From Ferrithrix thermotolerans DSM 19514 (lineage in GTDB: Bacteria; Actinomycetota; Acidimicrobiia; Acidimicrobiales; Acidimicrobiaceae): DNA of 47,682 bases. A program made the position numbers and the translations under genes. The DNA is taken from assembly GCF_900128965.1 (NCBI RefSeq), contig NZ_FQUL01000016.1, forward strand, positions 1 through 47,682, given 5' to 3'. This document shows positions 1,696-24,072 of the stretch, in pieces. The notes under the pieces were generated by a model. The model worked only from the letters and a program-made list of their open reading frames with translations, was not told where the DNA came from and made no database searches. The first letter of the stretch is position 1. Each line of letters begins with the position of its first letter.

Positions 1696-3158
1696 TGGAT
1701 CAAGTGGACTTGTTGAAGATGGATGCGTCTTCTCTGTCAGATTTCATCAGAGAGGGTAGCGCTAGTGTTGTCGATGTTGCAAAGGCTGTCATAGCTCAGA
1801 TAGAGACGAAGGATCCCGACATAAGAGCCTTTCTTCACTTTGACGCAAAGGCACTGCTTGAGCAGGCGGAGCGGATTGACCAAAGAATCACTTCTAAGGG
1901 TCCTTCAGGACGGCTACTTGGTGTTCCAGTTGCTCTCAAAGATAACATGGTGACTTCCAACATGCCCACTACCGCAGCCTCAAAGATTTTGGAGGGGTGG
2001 ATGCCTCCCTACGATGCGACCGTAGTGAAAAAGATTGTTGATGAGGGTGCTCTAGTTGTTGGAAAGACAAACTTGGATGAGTTCGCCATGGGTTCTTCGA
2101 CGGAGAACTCGGCCTTTCAGACCACAAGAAATCCTCACGATCTAAGTAGGGTGCCAGGTGGATCCTCTGGAGGTTCTGCGGCGGCGGTTGCAGCGGGAAT
2201 GAGTACTTTGTCACTTGGCTCCGATACTGGAGGATCCATTAGGCAACCCGCAGCCTTATGCGGTGTTGTTGGAGTAAAACCAACCTACGGCTATGTCTCT
2301 CGTTACGGGCTGATAGCGTTTGCCTCCTCTTTGGATCAGATAGGTCCATTTGCAAGAACGGTCGGTGATGCGGCGCTTTTGCTAGAGGTGATCTCTGGTC
2401 ATGATCCTATGGATGCGACTTCTATAAGAGGCGAGAGACCTTCGCTTTCGGATCTATCCGATAAGGGAGTGGAGACTCTACGTATCGGTGTTCTATCTGA
2501 GTTGCTCGACAACTGCTCGCAAGAGGTGAGGGAGAGGGTAGAGCTTGCGGCGCAGCTACTTGCTGAACGCGGCGCCAAGGTTGAGACCGTGAGTGCAAAG
2601 GCCGTGACCCTTGGTCTATCCGCTTACTATGTGATAGCTCCGGCTGAAGCGTCCTCGAATCTGTCTCGCTACGATGGGGTAAGGTTTGGTCTGAGGGCTG
2701 ATCGTTCGTCTCTGTCTGAGATGTTTCTTGCTACCCGTACAGACGGCTTTGGAGACGAGGTCAAACGTCGCATCATGCTGGGCACTTATGCGCTCTCTTC
2801 TGGTTACTACGACCAGTTCTACTCCAAAGCTCTCGCAACGCGTGACCTTATCCGTTCAGAGTTCGAACGGGTGTATCGAGACTTCGACATCTTGCTGGGC
2901 CCCACGTCGCCAACGACCGCTTTTCGGGTTGGGGAAAAAGCCCAAGATCCTATGGCTATGTACATGAACGATGTATGCACGATCCCGTCGAATCTGGCTG
3001 GCCATCCGGCGATGTCTGTTCCCTTTGGCACTGACAGCTCGGGACTGCCCATAGGTGTGCAGCTTCTTGGGCCCATGATGTCGGAACCTGTTTTGTTTCA
3101 GGTGGCCTTTGAGGTAGAAAGGCTAGCCAGTGAGGTCTCGGAGGTGAAAGATGCCTAA
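1695..3158 (+). CDS. gatA: Aspartyl/glutamyl-tRNA(Asn/Gln) amidotransferase subunit A
   Basis: This is the amidase subunit that frees ammonia from glutamine for tRNA amidation. At 487 residues it has family length and carries the amidase-signature catalytic triad: Lys82 (VALKDNM), the cis-Ser157 in PGGSSGGSA, and nucleophile Ser181 in DTGGSIRQP. The spacing matches characterised GatA proteins. The start is a GTG at 1695 whose first base is the last base of the gatC stop, implying translational coupling. The last eight bases overlap the start of gatB. The product works in the cytoplasm as part of GatCAB, with ammonia passing through a tunnel to GatB. Confidence 0.98.
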
Positions 3159-4623
3159 CTCTCAAGAGGTTGAGTCCAAAGGGGTTGCCTGGGAGTACGA
3201 AGGGTTTGAACTTGTAGTGGGTCTTGAGGTTCATACAGAGCTAAAGACCAGATCGAAGTTGTTTTGCTCCTGTGCAAATGAGTTCGGAAAGACACCGAAC
3301 ACAAATGTCTGCCCGATATGCCTAGGGCTTCCCGGCACGCTTCCGGTTCTAAATAAGCAGGTGGTGGAGCTGGCGATCAAGATCGGACTTGCCCTTAACT
3401 GTAACGTGAGAAAGAGCACATTTCACAGGAAGAACTACTTTTATCCTGATCTGCCCAAGGGCTATCAGATATCTCAGTACGATCTTCCCATCAACTCCGA
3501 CGGTTACCTGGATCTACCTTCTGGAAGCAGGGTTGGAGTGGTTAGAGCGCATATAGAAGAAGACACCGGAAAGATCTCACACATGGGAGCCTCAGGTCGG
3601 ATGGACAAGAGTGCGTACTCTCTGATCGACTACAACAGAGCTGGTGTGCCTCTTACGGAGATTGTAAGTGCTCCAGATATTCGCTCTCCCGAACAGGCAA
3701 GGGAGTACGTTCAGGAACTCCGACAGACACTTGTGGCACTCGGCGTTAGCGACGGTCGAATGGAAGAGGGTTCGCTAAGAGTAGATGCGAACGTGTCGGT
3801 CAGGCCAATAGGGTCCGATGAGCTTAGAACTAGATGTGAAATCAAGAACCTGAACTCTTTGCGCTCCTTAGTCAGGGCGATCGACTACGAGGGCAAGAGA
3901 CACGTAAAGCTCTATCAAAGGGGGGAGTCTCCAGTGCAAGAGACTCGCCACTGGGATGAAGCAAGACAACGAACTGGATCGCTTCGCTCCAAAGAGGAGG
4001 CCAACGACTACCGTTACTTTCTGGAGCCTGACCTGATGGCACTTGCGCCTAGCGAATCTCTCGTTGAGAAGATAAAGGGGGAGATCGTCGATACTCCAAA
4101 AAAACGCCGGGAGTTTCTCAAAGATGCTCTTAGAGGGGAAGATATGTCGGACCAGATCGAGAAGGCGATTGACTTTGATCTCTACCCCTTTGTCAGCTAT
4201 GCAATTGAACAAGGTGTTGCACCTCGGCTAGCGGTTGCTCGAACGGCGAACGAACTCGCAGCCTTAGTATTCGATGCCAAGCATCTTACGAAGGAACGCT
4301 TTGTAGAGGTGTTGAGACTTGAAGACTCAAAGGAGATATCCCCATCCCAGGCGAAGACGCTCCTTTTAAAGGTTGCTGAGGATGATAGATCCATAGAAGA
4401 GATCGTGATCTCTTTAGATCTGAAGAAGGCTGACGTGTCAGAGACTGAAGAGCTGGTCCTTAGGGTAAAAGACGACTCTCCGAAGGAGTGGGAGCGGTTT
4501 CTTGAGGGCCAAGACCAGCTGATCGGGTTTTTTGTAGGCAAAGTCATGAAACTAAGCAGCGGTAAGGCTGACGGGGCCTTAGTGAAAGATATCCTGTTGC
4601 AACTAAGGGCAGAAAGCAAGTAA
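3151..4623 (+). CDS. gatB: Aspartyl/glutamyl-tRNA(Asn/Gln) amidotransferase subunit B
   Basis: GatB binds the mischarged tRNA, phosphorylates the attached Glu or Asp with ATP, and amidates it with ammonia from GatA. The 490-residue protein starts with the GLEVHTEL motif and has the zinc-binding cysteines C39, C41, C54 and C57 (FCSC and CPIC). Further on come the [15 protein letters not shown] segment and the C-terminal YqeY-like tail that recognises the tRNA elbow. The ATG at 3151 lies in the last codons of gatA, with GGAGGTG just upstream. No terminator is visible before ilvD, 46 bases on, so the gat genes may read into ilvD. Confidence 0.98.
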
Positions 4624-4669
4624 TAAAGGCGTGTCCGTCTTTTGGGAGTAAGACAGGAGGGAGAGTCTG

Positions 4670-6367
4670 TTGAGCGGGGAAAACCATACAAAAAGTTCGG
4701 TGAAGATCCGAAGTTATGAGGTGACGGAAGGCTTCCGTCGTGCGCCAGCCAGAGCGATGCTCAGGGCTGTTGGTATGAGAGACGAGGACTTCTCGAAGGC
4801 CCAGGTAGGGGTTGCATCTTCTTTCAATGAGGTTACTCCTTGCAATATGCCGCTAGGTCGTTTAGCTCAGGACGTCAAAGTAGGCGTGAAAAAGGCTGGT
4901 GGCTACCCGTTGGAGTTTTCGACGATAGCAGTTTCCGACGGCATCTCAATGGGACATGAGGGAATGCACGCCTCTTTGGTGTCGAGAGAGGTAATCGCTG
5001 ACTCTGTAGAGCTTATGATGCATGCAGAGAGGCTTGATGCCCTTGTAACACTAGCTGGATGCGATAAGTCCTTACCTGGGATGTTGATGGCTGCAGCCCG
5101 ACTCGATCTTCCTTCTGTGTTCTTCTACGGAGGGTCGATTCTCCCTGGAAGATACAAGGATCAAGCCCTAGACATAGTCTCTGTCTTTGAGGCGGTTGGT
5201 GCTTACGCAAGTGGGACTATGTCTGAAGACGAACTTATTCAGATAGAGCGTAACGCATGTCCGACAGAGGGTTCGTGTGCAGGCATGTTTACAGCGAACA
5301 CCATGGCTTCCATTGGAGAAGCGTTGGGCATGTCTGTGCCTGGTTCTGCGTCTGCTCCAGCCGTAGACTCCCGAAGAAGGGATTATGCAGAGTTGTCGGG
5401 CGTGCTTGTAATGAACCTACTGCGTCAGGGGATAACCGCTAGGCAGATCATGACCAAAGGTGCCTTTGAGAATGCTATAGCGATAGTTATGGCGCTTGGA
5501 GGCTCGACGAACGCTGTGTTGCATCTAATGGCGATCGCATACGAGGCTAAGGTGGACTTGACCCTAGATGACTTTAATCGCATCGCGGCCAAGGTGCCCC
5601 ATATCGCCGATACCAAACCACACGGGAAGTTCCATATGGCGGACGTGGACCGAATCGGCGGAGTCCCTGTGGTTATGCGCGAACTATATGAAGCTGGGCT
5701 TATCCACGGCGATCTAATTACTGTTACAGGAAAGACGGTAGCAGAAAACCTCCACGATCTTGATCCTCCCAAACCAGACGGAGTTGTCGTGCATCCCATA
5801 TCGGATCCGATTCATCAGATTGGAGGTATCGCAGTTCTGAAGGGTTCATTGGCTCCCAAGGGTTCAGTTGTCAAGGTGGCTGGCATAGACCAAGATCACT
5901 TTGAAGGTGTAGCGCGAGTCTTCGACGGGGAGGAGTTAGCCCTCGATGCGATCCTGGAGGGCAAGATCGAAGCAGGCTCCGTGGTGGTCATTCGGTACGA
6001 AGGTCCAAAAGGCGGACCCGGCATGAGAGAGATGTTGGCGGTCACCGGAGCGATGAAGGGGGCGGGTAGAGGTTCTGACTCCGCCTTGGTAACCGATGGA
6101 CGTTTCTCGGGTGGTACTCATGGTTTTTGCATCGGACATGTTGCTCCCGAGGCAGCCGATCTTGGGCCGATCGCTGCGGTTCGAGACGGTGACAGAATCG
6201 TTATCGACGTAAATAACCACAGCATCGAGCTTTTAGTCCCAGAAGAAGAGATTCAAAGACGGCTTGCGGAGGTGACGCCGAGAGCTCCTAAGTACGCCTC
6301 CGGAGTCCTGGCTAAGTTTGCGAAACTTGTGCAGGGGGCCGATTTAGGTGCGGTAACGTTGGGTTAG
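4670..6367 (+). CDS. ilvD: Dihydroxy-acid dehydratase
   Basis: IlvD dehydrates 2,3-dihydroxy-isovalerate and -methylvalerate to the keto acids that precede valine and isoleucine. The 565-residue protein contains the three iron-sulfur cysteines of the family: C58 (TPCNMP), C131 (AGCDKSLPG) and C203 (GSCAGMF). The C-terminal signature [18 protein letters not shown] is also present. The chosen start is a TTG at 4670, placed well after AGGAGGGAG. The -35 element of the ilvB promoter overlaps the 3' end of this gene. It precedes the ilv attenuator and so is probably not controlled by it, although it works in the same pathway. Confidence 0.97.
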
Positions 6368-6388
6368 TCGAGACGGCTGTACTATAAT
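6359..6388 (+). promoter_or_regulatory. Promoter of the ilv leader and ilvBNC operon
   Basis: A TATAAT -10 box (6383-6388) has a weak TTGGGT -35 box (6359-6364) 18 bases upstream, inside the end of ilvD. The predicted transcription start falls at about 6395-6397, on or next to the ATG of the leader peptide, so the mRNA is likely leaderless. Confidence 0.65.
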
Positions 6389-6396
6389 CTCATCAA

Positions 6397-6438
6397 ATGG
6401 CATTTATCCGAACATCTGTAGTACTAGTACTAATTTAG
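6397..6438 (+). CDS. ilv operon leader peptide
   Basis: An open frame of 13 codons and a TAG encodes [13 protein letters not shown]. Seven of the 13 residues are branched-chain (three Val, two Leu, two Ile), and six of them are the last residues before the stop except for their internal order (VVLVLI). This is the hallmark of a transcription-attenuation leader: ribosomes slow at these codons when the charged tRNAs are scarce. It lies between a promoter and a hairpin/terminator pair, directly upstream of ilvB. It has no Shine-Dalgarno site, and the ATG sits at the predicted transcription start. The frame is too short for routine gene callers. Confidence 0.88.
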
Positions 6439-6462
6439 CGCACACCCCCTATCGGTGTGCGC
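6438..6462 (+). promoter_or_regulatory. First hairpin of the ilv attenuator
   Basis: GCGCACACC (6438-6446) pairs perfectly with GGTGTGCGC (6454-6462) across a seven-base loop. The stem begins at the last base of the leader stop codon, so a ribosome at the control codons or at the stop would cover its left arm. It has no U-tract and is followed at once by the terminator. I infer that it senses the ribosome position. Confidence 0.8.
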
Positions 6463-6465
6463 ACT

Positions 6466-6492
6466 AAGACCTCCCATTTGGGAGGTCTTTTC
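6466..6492 (+). terminator. Attenuator terminator upstream of ilvB
   Basis: AAGACCTCCC pairs with GGGAGGTCTT across a four-base ATTT loop and is followed by Ts. It is a strong intrinsic terminator 17 bases before the ilvB ATG, inside the leader, as expected for an attenuator rather than for an operon end. Confidence 0.88.
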
Positions 6493-6508
6493 ATATCATG
6501 GAGGCGCT

Positions 6509-8215
6509 ATGAAGTTGACCGGAGCTCAGGCTCTTATAAAGTCGCTTGAGATGCAGGGCGTTGAAGTCGTCTTTGGGTTGCCCGGGGGAGCAATCCTGCC
6601 GGTATACGATCCCTTGCTAGACTCATCCATCCGTCACATCCTCGTGCGTCACGAACAGGGTGCGGGTCATGCCGCAGAGGGTTACGCGCAGGCCACAGGC
6701 AAGCCGGGCGTCGCCATTGTAACCTCCGGTCCGGCGGCAACTAATATCGTTACTCCGCTAGCAGATGCCTATATGGACTCGATCCCCCTTGTTGTCATTA
6801 CCGGGCAGGTGGCGACATCGACGATTGGTACTGATGCCTTCCAAGAGGCTGACACGACCGGGATTACGATGTCAATTACTAAGCACAACTGGCTGATAAC
6901 AGATGCGAACGATATTCCAAGAGTCGTCAGGGAGGCATTTCACGTCGCTACAACTGGAAGACCTGGACCGGTTCTTATTGATCTTCCCAAGAACGTCTCC
7001 AACTCTACCATGGAATGGTACTGGCCTCGCCAGGTATCTTTGCCTGGATATAAGCCGACCACCAAGGGTCATCCCAAGATGATAAAAGAGGCGGCAAAGA
7101 TGATCGCCTCTGCCGAGAAGCCCGTGTTTTACGTGGGCGGCGGCGTGGTCAGGGCCAAGGGTGCTGAGAGCCTGAGGAGATTGGTCGATCTAACTCAAAT
7201 TCCAACCGTCACCACGTTAATGGCCCGAGGAGTTCTTCCGGACTCGCATCCGATGTGTCTGGGAATGCCTGGAATGCACGGCAACTATGCAGCGGTTACC
7301 TCTATGCAAAAGGCCGACCTTCTCATCGTGCTTGGAGCACGTTTCGATGATCGTGTTACAGGAAAGGTAGATGCCTTTGCACCAAATGCCAAGGTCATTC
7401 ACATAGACATAGACCCCGCAGAGCTCGGAAAGATCCGTCATGCTGAGGTACCGATCGTTGGAGATGTAAAGTCTGTGATGGACGATCTCTTTGCCGAACT
7501 CGAGCCATTGCAGGGACACTTCAGAGACATCTCGCCTTGGCGTAAGGAGATAAAGTCTTGGCAGGATACCTATCCCTACAGCTATGATCGCGCCCATGAG
7601 GGTCCGCCATTAAAGCCCCAGATGGTTATCGAGAGGATCAGGGATCTAAACGATGAGGACACGATTGTGGTCTCTGGGGTCGGCCAACATCAGATGTGGG
7701 CCTCTCAATACTGGCAGTTTGAGAAACCTAACATGTGGATCAACTCGGGGGGTCTTGGAACTATGGGGTTTGCTGTTCCCGCCGCGATAGGTGCTAAGGT
7801 AGGACGCCCAGATCGAACTGTATGGGTTATCGACGGAGATGGATGTTTTCAGATGACCGCACAGGAGCTTGTAACTGCGACAACCGAAAGGATCCCCATC
7901 AAGGTTGCTATCTTGAACAACGCATACCTAGGTATGGTGCGTCAGTGGCAAGAGATGTTTTACGAAGAACGATACTCTGAGGTGTATCTCTCTCCTGACC
8001 TTCCAGACTACGTAAAGTGGGCTGAGGCGATGGGTTGTGTTGGGATTAGGGTAGTTCATCCATCTGAGATAGACGCCGCTATCGAAAAGGCCAACTCGAT
8101 AACTGATCGTCCGGTTGTTATTGATTTCCGTACAGACACCCAGGAGAAGGTATTTCCCATGGTTCCAGCGGGTAAGTCCAACGATGAGATCGTACTTGGA
8201 GAGGATGAGCTATGA
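6509..8215 (+). CDS. ilvB: Acetolactate synthase large (catalytic) subunit
   Basis: IlvB is the thiamine-diphosphate enzyme that condenses pyruvate with pyruvate or 2-oxobutyrate, the first common step of branched-chain amino acid synthesis. From the ATG at 6509 (GGAGG at 6500-6504) it is 568 residues, the normal size. Motifs seen are [12 protein letters not shown], catalytic Glu49 in [13 protein letters not shown], and the thiamine-binding GDG (443-445) ending at NN (470-471). The frame stays open upstream to 6455, but that extension would run through the terminator hairpin and has no ribosome site, so I reject it. It overlaps ilvN by four bases (ATGA) and lies behind a leader-peptide attenuator. 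Confidence 0.98.
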
Positions 8216-8793
8216 ATCAGGAGGGAAACCAGGTAGTTCCTATCGGGGGAGCCATACGTACCCCAAATGAGTTCCGTCACCATATCCTCTCTGTCTTGGT
8301 TGAGAACAAGACAGGGGTATTGGCACGTGTAGCACAGCTTTTTTCACGAAGGGGATACAACATCTTTTCTTTGGCTGTGGCTCCAACGGACGATGAGCGT
8401 TTTTCGAGGATTACAGTGGTGGTTGACGTTGAAACTGCGCCTTTAGAGCAGATCACTAAGCAGCTGCACAAGCTCGTGAACGTAATTAAGATCTCTGAGA
8501 TCGATCCGGACGAGGCTGTTGAGTACGAGTTGCTACTAGCTACGGTCTCTGCAGACGCGGCCACGAGGGCCCAGGTAATAGAGCTCGTAAACCTCTTCGA
8601 GGGACGAATTGTGGATGTGGGGCTCACGAAGCTCACGGTTATGGTCGCAGCGTCGCCTTCACAACTTGACGATTTTGAAGCTCTAATTGTTGAGTATGGA
8701 TTAGTTGAGCTGCAAAGAACAGGTAGGGTAGCTCTGCAGAAGTTGGGTAAGCCCGTCGTGAAAAGGAAGCAGTTGAAAGGGAGGGTCTCTTAG
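8212..8793 (+). CDS. ilvN: Acetolactate synthase small (regulatory) subunit
   Basis: This 193-residue subunit activates IlvB and gives it valine feedback inhibition. An ACT domain occupies the first half ([21 protein letters not shown], with GYNIFSLAV), and the usual C-terminal ALS_ss_C domain follows. The ATG overlaps the ilvB stop as ATGA, which suggests coupled, near-stoichiometric synthesis. About 20 poorly conserved residues precede the ACT domain. The stop is immediately followed by the ilvC ATG. Confidence 0.97.
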
Positions 8794-9816
<1,023 letters not shown>

Positions 9817-9857: not shown

Positions 9858-11354
9858 TTGTCTAAGAGTAGCTTATCGACAAGGCGCGCAGTTCTTTTGT
9901 TTCTGGTCGTCGCTCTAACGGCCAGGGTTATTGCGTCTCATATCTCTACAAAGGGTAGTGGACACTTTACTACAGGGCAGCTACGGTCATACGTAGCTGC
10001 TCTGTTCGTATCTTTGACCTTTAGCGTTGTCATCTATGGAGTCTCTTTGGCGTTGACCTCCAGAATAACGTCTTACCCGGAACACACCACAGGTGAAAAA
10101 GGAAAGATCTTCCATTTGTGGGGTTCATCACTTGTCAAAGGGGTGTATTTCGGGGCGTTGGCCACCACGGCGCTTTACATAGTGTTAGGGCCGTTACACA
10201 TCGCTGGAGGTGTCAGTCTAGCAACTTGGCTCTTTTCCTGCGGGTTATTGATTCAAGGAATCTTTAGGGCTACTATCTCGTGGATATCCCCGGAGGGTAA
10301 AAGGGGCGTATTAGGGAGACTGACGTTGACGCTCTTCTCTCTTGTAGCGGCAGCACTTAGCGGCTATGAGATCGCTCTTTCACGTAAGATTTCCGCGGGG
10401 TTTTTGAACTATGCACCTGGTGGTTCGGTAGTAGCCACCACGGCGATCGGTTTGGCTGGGATCATGTTGTTGCTTTTTGGGCGTGCCCCGAGCTTTAACG
10501 AGAGAGAGAGCGAGTACTCATGTGCCCTTGAGGAGTCTTTACAGGACGGTTCTCTCCTTCGGTTTCCCGTTGAAGAGAGACTGATTTTACAGAGAGAAGC
10601 GTTGGGGTCACCGAAGCTGTCCTCACTTCTTCTCGGAGGACTGAAGAAGCCCGTGAGGTCTGGCGTGGTCTTGGCGATGGTTGGAACAGCATCCCTTTGG
10701 GTTCGAGTGGTTGGCCTCATTTCCTTGTTGGTGCTCACCGTATCAAGCGCTACAGTAGCGTTTCAGACTCGTCAGGGGGTGTTTTACCTTGTTCCCATAT
10801 CCATCTCCTATTTAGCTGCAAACGTCTTGCTCTGGCCTTTTCGAAATCTTATTACAAGGGAGGCACTTTTGCTTAGACTCGCTCCTGACGTAGGAAGATG
10901 GGAACGCAAGGTCGTGACTATATCCGGAGCTGTCTTTGTAGGAATACTATTGTTGATCGAAGGGGTTATTTTACTGCCGTTCATGGGTCTCTATAACTTT
11001 GCGATAGCGGCCTCAGTCACGGTTGCTCTTGGATTTGGATCGGTCTTTTCGGTCGCTCTGAGGACGATACTTTACTCTCCGACCTATCTCTTTATCACTA
11101 AAGGTAGAGGTAGAGACTCAACGGACGCTACGAGATTCGTCGTCCGCTCCGTGTTCATTGTTCTTATCGCCTGTACCGGAGAGATCGCTCTGGTTCAGTT
11201 CCATACACTTTACGGCGAACGGTCTTTCTTGCTTGAGACGGTCCTGTCAGCAGTAACGTTCTCCCTTGTCCTGCCCCTTGCGGCATCTTCGTGGATTGGA
11301 AGGAGGGAGTATGGCCTCCAAAGAACGACCGAAGAGAGTGAAACGTCAAGGTGA
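9858..11354 (+). CDS. Polytopic membrane protein of unknown family
   Basis: I do not recognise this family. The 498-residue protein has about 12 hydrophobic segments in two groups of six, separated by a polar stretch at about residues 215-265. The layout resembles a transporter permease, including ABC permeases with two bundled halves. The TTG at 9858 is the likely start. The next gene starts 44 bases before its end and encodes a degenerate ABC-ATPase-like protein, so the two probably form one complex. It lies 41 bases after ilvC with no terminator visible, so read-through from ilvBNC is possible. The substrate is unknown. Confidence 0.75.
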   Translation: MSKSSLSTRRAVLLFLVVALTARVIASHISTKGSGHFTTGQLRSYVAALFVSLTFSVVIYGVSLALTSRITSYPEHTTGEKGKIFHLWGSSLVKGVYFGALATTALYIVLGPLHIAGGVSLATWLFSCGLLIQGIFRATISWISPEGKRGVLGRLTLTLFSLVAAALSGYEIALSRKISAGFLNYAPGGSVVATTAIGLAGIMLLLFGRAPSFNERESEYSCALEESLQDGSLLRFPVEERLILQREALGSPKLSSLLLGGLKKPVRSGVVLAMVGTASLWVRVVGLISLLVLTVSSATVAFQTRQGVFYLVPISISYLAANVLLWPFRNLITREALLLRLAPDVGRWERKVVTISGAVFVGILLLIEGVILLPFMGLYNFAIAASVTVALGFGSVFSVALRTILYSPTYLFITKGRGRDSTDATRFVVRSVFIVLIACTGEIALVQFHTLYGERSFLLETVLSAVTFSLVLPLAASSWIGRREYGLQRTTEESETSR

Positions 11355-11979
11355 ATTGAACGATGTAGTACTGCAGTTGAGCAACCTCGAGAGTTTTCAT
11401 GGAGGCTTTGCTCCTTTAAGTGCTACCTTTTCGAAGGGAGACTCCGTAAGGATTGTGGCACCCAAGATATCCATGGCGACATCTCTGCTAACGGTGCTGG
11501 CGGGCGTGGTACCGCCACTTAGGGGGAAAGCCGTGGTTCTTGGCGCTCGTTGTAACTCTGTTGAAGGCAGGAGTGTTATCTCGAGCTTTGGAGTGACTAG
11601 GGGGCCAGACTGGGGCCTGACTTTACTTGACTCACTCTTGCTGTATCAAGGTTTTGTGACTGACCCACTGGAAAGAAGAAGAAGAGCTTTAGATGTCATA
11701 GAAGAGTTGGATATAGGAACCCTAACCCACAGTCGTCTACACGAGCTTGACCCAAGGGACAGACTTCTCTTCGAGTTTGCATGTTTTAGGGTTCAACCAG
11801 CCCAGATCAGTGTGGTGTTTGGGCTTCATGATCCAAACGAGCCAAGCGCTAAACAAAGAATCTTTGATGTAATGGCCGATCTTCGTTCAAAGGGTCGAGT
11901 CCTTATCTGGCTTGAACCTCCTTCCTACCTTTTAGGTCTGATAGACGTAGATATACAGCTCCAGAGTAGCCCATTTTAA
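11311..11979 (+). CDS. ABC-ATPase-like protein lacking catalytic motifs
   Basis: This 222-residue protein follows the layout of an ABC transporter ATPase. Residues 33-65 (FAPLSATFSKGDSVRIV, then SLLTVLAG) match the strand-P-loop-helix region. Residues 66-80 match the strand after it (GKAVVLGAR), and ERRRRALDVIEELDIG matches the helical-domain region. Every catalytic motif is altered. The Walker A position reads APKISMATS with no GKS/T, the LSGGQ position reads ELDPRDR, the Walker B/Glu position reads VVFGLHDP, and the switch His is not evident. The frame is intact with a strong AGGAGGGAG site, so it is a gene rather than debris. It probably binds the preceding membrane protein. The ABC origin is inferred from pattern, not from a search. 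Confidence 0.65.
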   Translation: MASKERPKRVKRQGELNDVVLQLSNLESFHGGFAPLSATFSKGDSVRIVAPKISMATSLLTVLAGVVPPLRGKAVVLGARCNSVEGRSVISSFGVTRGPDWGLTLLDSLLLYQGFVTDPLERRRRALDVIEELDIGTLTHSRLHELDPRDRLLFEFACFRVQPAQISVVFGLHDPNEPSAKQRIFDVMADLRSKGRVLIWLEPPSYLLGLIDVDIQLQSSPF

Positions 11980-12064: not shown

Positions 12065-12694
12065 ATGCGAAACTGTGGAGGACACGGAGAAGGCTGTGGC
12101 GGAAGACATGAACACCATGGTGAAGGAGGCGGACGCGGTCGTATGCGCCAGGGACCGATGGGAGGCTTTGGGCTAGGTGTGAGGGGTCCAGGATTTCAGA
12201 TGCGCCAGGGACCAATGGGAGGGTTCGGCATGCGGCCTGGACGAATGAGAGCTCAGAGAGGAGACGTAAAGGCTGCAATCCTGTCGTTGGTCAAGGAGGC
12301 TCCCCGACACGGCTACGAGATTATCTCTGAGATCGAGCAGCGATCTAACGGGGCTTGGAAACCAAGTCCCGGATCGATCTATCCAACCCTTCAAGCTCTA
12401 GAGGATCAAGGTCTTGTTGTGGGATCTGACTCTGAAGGGAAAAGGGTGTACTCAATTACCGAGGCAGGTGATGAGTACTTGAAGAACCTGCCGGGAGGAG
12501 GAGTTCGTTGGGAGCAGTTTCAAGACGGTCCCTTGGGTGGAGTTATGGATCTTAGGGAACAGATGTTCCAGCTCGGTGCCGCAGTGATGCAAGTAGCGGC
12601 TCAAAGCGATCGAGATCAGACCGAGGCGGTTGCGAAGCTGTTGACCGAGACAAAGAAGAAGATATATCGACTCCTTGCTGGAGACGAACTCTGA
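12065..12694 (+). CDS. PadR-family transcriptional regulator with Gly/Met/His-rich N-terminus
   Basis: Residues from about 60 onward form a PadR winged-helix domain: KAAILSLVKEAPRHGYEII, then GSIYPTLQALEDQGLV and KRVYSITEAGDEYL. A C-terminal helical dimerisation segment of roughly 60 residues follows. PadR proteins are usually repressors of transport or stress genes. The first 60 residues are unusual: they contain clustered Cys and His (NCGGHGEGCGG, RHEHHGEGGG), then two copies of MRQGPMGGFG 19 residues apart. This looks like a flexible, possibly metal-binding tail. The ATG at 12065 follows an AGAGGTG site. The palindrome upstream is a likely self-operator, and the divergent-ABC-like pair just upstream is the nearest candidate target. 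Confidence 0.88.
   Translation: MRNCGGHGEGCGGRHEHHGEGGGRGRMRQGPMGGFGLGVRGPGFQMRQGPMGGFGMRPGRMRAQRGDVKAAILSLVKEAPRHGYEIISEIEQRSNGAWKPSPGSIYPTLQALEDQGLVVGSDSEGKRVYSITEAGDEYLKNLPGGGVRWEQFQDGPLGGVMDLREQMFQLGAAVMQVAAQSDRDQTEAVAKLLTETKKKIYRLLAGDEL
12143..12229 (+). repeat. Tandem repeat in the padR N-terminal coding region
   Basis: A 57-base period is present: the 30 bases from 12143 recur from 12200 with few changes, including ATGCGCCAGGGACC in both copies. It encodes MRQGPMGGFG twice. The repeat stays in frame, consistent with internal duplication of a disordered tail. Confidence 0.85.
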
Positions 12695-23500: not shown

Positions 23501-23571
23501 TCGGGGGTGGTGTAATTGGCAACACTACAGATTCTGGCTCTGTCATTGGGGGTTCGAGTCCTCCCCCCCGA
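23501..23571 (+). tRNA. tRNA-Gln (anticodon CTG)
   Basis: A cloverleaf can be drawn: acceptor TCGGGGG with CCCCGA/G, a GTG/CAC D stem, anticodon stem ACAGA/TCTGT with loop TTCTGGC (anticodon CTG), and T stem GGGGG/CCTCC with loop TTCGAGT. U8 is present at the right place. The variable region or the acceptor is one base shorter than in typical Gln tRNAs, because the C-run must serve both the T and acceptor stems. No CCA is encoded. It begins 24 bases after the DUF218 gene, so it may share the gltX transcript. Confidence 0.85.
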
Positions 23572-23999
23572 GCTCGTAACCGATGTGCGGAGCGCTCGGG
23601 TTTCGACAGAGTTTCGATACTCCTTGAGTTAGGACTCTATTTTCTCTCTGATCCTTTCAATCTCTAACAAGATATTGAGTGATCTCTACCTTGAGGGGCT
23701 TTGGTCATCTTTACATAGCAGGTCTACATAATCAAAGTTCTATATGTTACGACTGTCGCACTAAGAGTTAGGACATTGATAACACGACTTTGAGATGTCC
23801 AAAGGCTTCTGGTTTAGATCGAGGAAAAAAGAGAAGAATGGTTGTTAGAACTTCCAGGTGGTCGTGTTTTAGCGGACTCTGCCAAACCACGGGGACGCGA
23901 TGAGAATCTCTAGGGGTAGCTCTTGCTCATTTCCCAGTTCTTTGGTGTAACGAGTGACTGATTCTTGTTAGTTCTCTGGTAGGCTACATATGCCTATTT
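23572..23999. other. Intergenic region between tRNA-Gln and tRNA-Glu
   Basis: I see no gene. CCCGAGC (23566-23572, overlapping the tRNA end) can pair with GCTCGGG (23594-23600), followed by TTT, a terminator-like stem that would compete with the tRNA acceptor stem. A promoter for tRNA-Glu is expected near 23965-23990 but its boxes are not clear. Confidence 0.4.
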
Positions 24000-24072
24000 G
24001 GCCCCATCGTCTAGAGGCCCAGGACATCACCCTCTCAAGGTGGAGACACGGGTTCGAATCCCGTTGGGGCTG
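24000..24072 (+). tRNA. tRNA-Glu (anticodon CTC)
   Basis: A full cloverleaf is visible: acceptor GGCCCCA with TGGGGCT (one G-U at the end), U8 at 24007, anticodon stem TCACC/GGTGG with loop CTCTCAA (anticodon CTC), and T stem ACGGG/CCCGT with loop TTCGAAT. The discriminator is G and CCA is not encoded. It is the substrate of GltX encoded 1.2 kb upstream. Confidence 0.95.

Follow-up and report, generated by a model that had tools for sequence, protein, structure and literature searches.

A gene pair behind ilvC in Ferrithrix thermotolerans: an ABC-ATPase relative without nucleotide-site motifs and its membrane partner

The ATP site is what defines ATP-binding cassette (ABC) ATPases, and where such a site is degenerate, it is normally tolerated only next to an intact one. 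In this work, we analyzed a stretch of 47,682 nucleotides from Ferrithrix thermotolerans DSM 19514 (contig NZ_FQUL01000016.1; hereafter the window), in which two genes directly behind ilvC encode a membrane protein of 498 amino acids and an ABC-ATPase-like protein of 222 amino acids that has lost all motifs of the nucleotide site. The pair is kept in related genera and is, in our judgment, probably a maintained pseudo-ABC complex without ATP pumping, having a structural or regulatory role in a branched-chain amino acid operon.

The nearest described systems are the ABC exporter ATPases of the DrrA/CcmA/TarH type (PF00005; nearest models TIGR01188, TIGR03740 and TIGR03864), which are homologous to the 222-amino-acid protein, show the same order of strands and helices and, as here, are encoded by a separate gene beside a partner with multiple transmembrane segments. 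Intact orthologues, hereafter called live, are ordinary members of this group, whereas the clade of degenerate proteins, hereafter called dead, lacks the Walker A, signature, Walker B, D-loop and H-loop motifs as well as the C-terminal strands, and the protein of the window has no match in Pfam. Heterodimeric ABC transporters with a degenerate site likewise contain one ABC subunit with non-canonical catalytic residues, but in the present case all motifs are gone and the locus, with ilvC, a PadR gene and leuA as neighbors, encodes no consensus partner. The live ilvC-linked pair of the same order (profiles A5 and A8) shares the locus, the gene order, the overlapping or closely spaced genes and a GAKxGSxxARSV arm; in contrast to the dead pair, it has Walker A (GxNG[SA]GK[TS]), a signature (FSRGxRQK), DEP and the H-loop His. 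In these live orthologues (loci L042-L060), Asp (VxFDxP) is found at the position of the Q-loop Gln of usual ABC ATPases.

The pair also resembles pseudoenzymes, such as pseudokinases and pseudo-GTPases like CENP-M, in its lineage-wide loss of catalytic residues, its selective retention and its origin from an active orthologue. A review on pseudoenzymes presents pseudokinases, pseudophosphatases and pseudo-ADP-ribosyltransferases, and its text includes neither an ATPase nor a transporter (PMC10211241); in contrast to these examples, a whole two-gene transporter appears to have been converted here.

ABC ancestry and loss of the nucleotide site

Both reading frames are located on the + strand and are as the first-pass annotation had described them, intact and overlapping by 44 bases (11311-11354). 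The membrane partner gene (9858-11354) has a TTG start and encodes 498 amino acids with about 11 hydrophobic, predicted transmembrane segments, while the pseudo-ABC ATPase gene (11311-11979) has an ATG start. The longest open reading frame for the latter comprises 237 amino acids from a TTG at 11266. The start at 11311 is supported because it aligns with the starts in two congeners, resulting in overlaps of 44, 41 and 38 bp (window, then congeners), and because a strong ribosome-binding site (ggaaggagggagt) immediately precedes this ATG. Overlap and ribosome-binding site together point to translational coupling of both genes.

Taken by itself, the single sequence gives weak indications of an ABC relation. 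In NCBIfam, the 222-amino-acid protein yielded only CcmA at E=0.0014, a contig search with it found no relative, and an ilvC-baited contig scan showed no homologue of the pair among the matches listed. A profile of three sequences from the genus matches ABC ATPases of known structure, namely TarH (6jbh, E=3.3e-5) and 1g6h (E=6.5e-5), the ATPase of a branched-chain amino acid transporter. Eight genera of the family were compared (g1 to g8), with g1 being the genus of the window. Comparison with the live ABC profile by hhalign gave 97.8% (E=6.6e-13, 198 columns) for the dead proteins of g1 and 99.2% (E=2.8e-19) for those of g5, g6 and g8. The corresponding two genes behind ilvC in sister genera encode a membrane protein of 475-529 amino acids and an ordinary ABC ATPase of 226-246 amino acids, the latter carrying Walker A, the FSRGxRQ signature, DEP and the H-loop His (PF00005, E about 1e-28). 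Since profile-profile comparison and synteny agree, the ABC relation is firm, and as far as sequences can tell the 222-amino-acid protein is a true ABC-ATPase descendant. An unrelated fold, tried as an alternative, is ruled out by synteny and the profile matches.

The first-pass annotation had proposed a relative of ABC ATPases that is devoid of all catalytic motifs and had named a profile search as the way to check it; alignment, profiles and synteny bear out this description, the profile matches (TarH, 1g6h; hhalign 97.8% for the ABC protein and 97.6% for the membrane partner) included. At the position of Walker A (11458-11484, +; residues 50-58), APKISMATS is found in place of GxNG[SA]GK[TS]T of live proteins, with Ala56 instead of Lys. 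The signature FSRGxRQ is replaced by LDPRDRL (11746-11766, +; residues 146-152), Walker B (LLxxDEP) by ISVVFGL (11806-11826, +; residues 166-172), and the H-loop His by Glu202 (11914-11916, +). Hence, the protein shows none of the features of a functional ABC ATPase, i.e. Walker A, signature, the Asp-Glu of Walker B and the H-loop His. Degenerate subunits that keep the Walker A Lys for ATP binding form no parallel either, as here the residue reads Ala56 and the loop appears unrecognizable. Walker A in the form GxxGxGK[ST] is absent from 12/12 aligned proteins of the dead clade; the other nucleotide-site motifs are likewise lost, and so are the D-loop and the C-terminal strands.

In an ABC dimer, each ATP site is composed of the Walker motifs from one subunit together with the signature from its counterpart (PMC12038006). 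Because the 222-amino-acid subunit has neither, no pairing would give a full ATP site. It is therefore very improbable that it represents the degenerate half of a heterodimeric ABC transporter with hydrolysis by a live ATPase encoded elsewhere, although a single degenerate site is common among heterodimeric exporters (PMC12038006) and at least one further ABC-like protein is encoded in the genome (a weak match). Moreover, a search of G000, G007, G010 and the other dead-clade genomes revealed no further live membrane partner of this type, except for the separate pair of G004. The latter, a second complete live pair in g2 (L279, G004:C131, 3952-6347) encoding proteins of 569 and 229 amino acids with the Walker A GRNGSGKT, is located on another contig and stands apart from ilvC, alongside the dead ilvC-linked pair.

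Membrane partner and retained segments

The 498-amino-acid protein belongs to no family in Pfam, NCBIfam or PADLOC and matches profile A5 of the live relatives with E=2.8e-12. Dead and live membrane profiles align with 97.6% (E=4.8e-12; hhalign) for g1 and with 90.4% (E=1.4e-6) for g5, g6 and g8; judged by these alignments, the protein is a degenerate descendant of an ABC-exporter transmembrane protein. Of the live motifs RGGP, LLSxxxRExLLRSK, LRFAxxxRDIRxV and W269, hardly any survive in the dead clade, while 10-11 hydrophobic segments and the C-terminal transmembrane end are retained. As the membrane partner has thus lost its own conserved motifs in parallel, the pair is not simply an otherwise normal transporter without a motor. 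With so many hydrophobic segments kept and both genes always found together, the membrane protein could still transport as a channel or a secondary (gradient-driven) transporter, the ATPase remnant then serving as a stabilizing plug or gate. Loss of nearly all live membrane motifs makes this unlikely, as does the finding of no similarity to known secondary transporters. The live transmembrane partner family is widespread in the order (40/148 genomes; loci L120-L139) and has no Pfam or NCBIfam model.

In ABC transporters, the Q-loop region is the docking place for the coupling helix of the membrane subunit. Two segments retained in the dead ABC protein lie on either side of the former Q-loop: the beta-arm (11536-11592, +; residues 76-94, VLGARCNSVEGRSVISSFG), which is common to the live relatives (GAKxGSxxARSV), and the start of the helical subdomain (11614-11652, +; residues 102-114, GLTLLDSLLLYQG; LTVxEHLxFSARL in live proteins), which is kept clade-wide, less so in g1. 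Segment by segment, dead proteins match the live consensus with an identity of 0.45 in the arm (0.42 in g1), 0.41 in the helical start and 0.41 in the helix after the signature. The corresponding values were 0.12 for each of Walker A, the Q-loop region and the signature, and 0.13 for Walker B/D-loop, all of which are regions of particularly high conservation in live proteins. The motifs of motor and partner have eroded and the putative contact surface has not, as would be expected if the complex stayed and pumping stopped.

Selection, distribution and timing of the loss

Within the family, all complete pairs of g3, g4 and g7 are of the live form (19/19) and all pairs of g1, g2, g5, g6 and g8 of the dead form (13/13), in each case directly behind ilvC. 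Both frames are open in all 13 dead genomes, and this conservation in relatives, which had been suggested earlier as a check, excludes chance, since the intact frames extend over five genera.

The ratio of nonsynonymous to synonymous substitution rates (dN/dS) was measurable in g1, g5 and g6; distant pairs are near synonymous saturation, and the close pairs carry the weight. For the dead ABC gene, dN/dS was about 0.13-0.23 in g5 (median 0.17), 0.24 in g6 and 0.25 in g1, compared to about 0.04-0.06 for live ABC genes and about 0.02 for ilvC. In the closest pair (G013/G029), 12 nonsynonymous versus 21 synonymous changes were counted in the ABC gene (p=2e-5), and 24.5 versus 44.5 in the membrane gene (p=2e-10). 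Neutrality was rejected for every pair tested, with p from 2e-5 to 5e-36. The live pairs of g3 and g7 show stronger constraint on the ATPase than on the membrane partner, while in dead pairs it is about equal on both. The dead pair is therefore under weaker but real purifying selection, and the earlier description of a maintained rather than decaying pair holds, given the open frames, the conserved position and frame overlap, and dN/dS well below 1 in all three genera.

Slow decay, in which the function is lost, the pair is eroding and the residual constraint is due to operon structure or to the cost that a misfolded membrane protein would impose, would account for the 3-4-fold relaxation of constraint and for the loss of conserved motifs by both partners. 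We regard it as quite unlikely, as both frames are open in 13/13 genomes even though a random base change would introduce a stop in about 3-4% of cases, as no tested pair evolves neutrally, and as selective conservation is seen in the arm and helical segments. The pair shows two features of pseudoenzymes: catalytic residues lost relative to intact same-locus orthologues (g3, g4, g7) and selective retention of the gene.

Among 20 ilvC loci from other families of the order, none showed the pair immediately behind ilvC. With the live membrane profile, homologues were detected in the 40 genomes mentioned above, several of them adjoining ilvC (families f29, f49 and f19), and the ATPase partner was intact in most of the order-wide loci examined. 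Since the live pair adjoins ilvC in other families, the intact, ilvC-linked state is ancestral.

A loss that is recent and confined to one strain is ruled out by the occurrence of the dead form in 13 genomes of five genera. The first-pass annotation had considered relatives with intact Walker motifs as a sign of recent loss; such relatives do exist, but the loss is not recent and most likely predates the five genera. The six genes of the ilv locus alone place the live g3 as sister to g5, g6 and g8 and favor two losses, although not significantly (approximately unbiased (AU) test, 0.21 for one loss). In a second tree with rpoB and gyrA added and leuA left out (seven genes, 4098 sites), the dead genera form one clade with a Shimodaira-Hasegawa (SH) support of 1.0, and two-loss topologies reach AU p <= 0.011 (best p=0.011). 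A single old loss before the divergence of the five dead genera is thus the likeliest course. Two separate losses, one in g1/g2 and one in g5/g6/g8, would agree with the ilv-locus genes and with the P-loop having been erased by substitution in g1 and g2 but with deletion in g5, g6 and g8; given the monophyly of the dead genera on seven genes, we consider them unlikely. The different placement of g3 by the ilv locus (window 3151-9816) and by rpoB and gyrA could be due to weak signal or to an exchange of genes within the ilv operon.

Operon context and proposed role

On the + strand of the window, the gene order is gatB, ilvD, ilvB, ilvN, ilvC, the 498-amino-acid membrane gene, the 222-amino-acid gene, padR and leuA. 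The ilvC gene for ketol-acid reductoisomerase (8794-9816, +) precedes the pair and is its constant neighbor family-wide; the ilvBNC genes group with Ilumatobacter and not with other reference phyla or actinobacterial orders, which places the organism in Acidimicrobiia. Downstream of the pair, a gene for a PadR-family regulator (12065-12694, +), with a long N-terminus rich in Gly, Met, His and Arg, occupies the same position as in the two congeners and the sister genus; it follows the pair in g1 and g2, and the other genera were seen without it there. Within the membrane gene, a strong hairpin with 14 pairs (9972-10005, GGGCAGCTA...AGCTGC, z=-8.5) is present at the equivalent place in both congeners (z=-4.6 and -5.1). 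One of its base pairs occurs in three states (C-G, U-A, A-U), a T-rich stretch lies 3' of it, and the pattern is unique to that place in its own genome; it is possibly an attenuator or terminator between ilvC and the pair. Two tRNA genes were detected by Rfam at 23501-23572 and 24000-24072.

For a maintained pseudo-ABC complex, the following course may be proposed. The family ancestor would have had an intact ABC exporter-type pair directly behind ilvC, of which, most likely in the common ancestor of the five genera, the ATPase subunit lost its nucleotide-site motifs and C-terminal strands. The membrane protein would have lost its conserved motifs alongside, both genes then being held by weaker purifying selection. 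The remnant most likely no longer binds or hydrolyzes ATP in the ABC manner and may stay on the membrane partner via the beta-arm and helical-start surface beside the former Q-loop. In this position, it could have a structural or regulatory function in a membrane complex that does not pump and is produced along with the IlvBNC enzymes. The first-pass annotation had suggested that the pair, as a complex, could be a sensor or a scaffold. More tentatively, and with less than even confidence, both subunits may have been converted into an ATP-independent complex that senses or organizes branched-chain amino acid synthesis, a "pseudo-transporter" of a sort for which no description was found in the literature searched. 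An ABC subunit without any motif was likewise not described there, which is weak evidence of absence, as coverage was partial.

Several observations limit or weigh against the reading as a maintained complex of this kind. AlphaFold on the single sequence of the 222-amino-acid protein gave a predicted local distance difference test (pLDDT) score of 36, too low for reading a fold, and the identity of the helical start is 0.18 in g1 versus 0.46-0.62 in g5, g6 and g8. Live relatives are 3-4 times more strongly constrained, a difference that slow decay would also produce, and the ilv-locus genes lean towards two losses. Furthermore, the proposed link to branched-chain amino acid synthesis is drawn from gene order only.

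Here, a stand-alone ATPase subunit without its whole site and a partner that has changed too were both kept through the divergence of five genera. Owing to the intact orthologues at the same locus, the family would provide a clean natural experiment on the use of an ABC subunit without ATP and on the route from a transporter to something else. The comparison suggests that in one lineage a former transporter was put to a new, non-pumping use.
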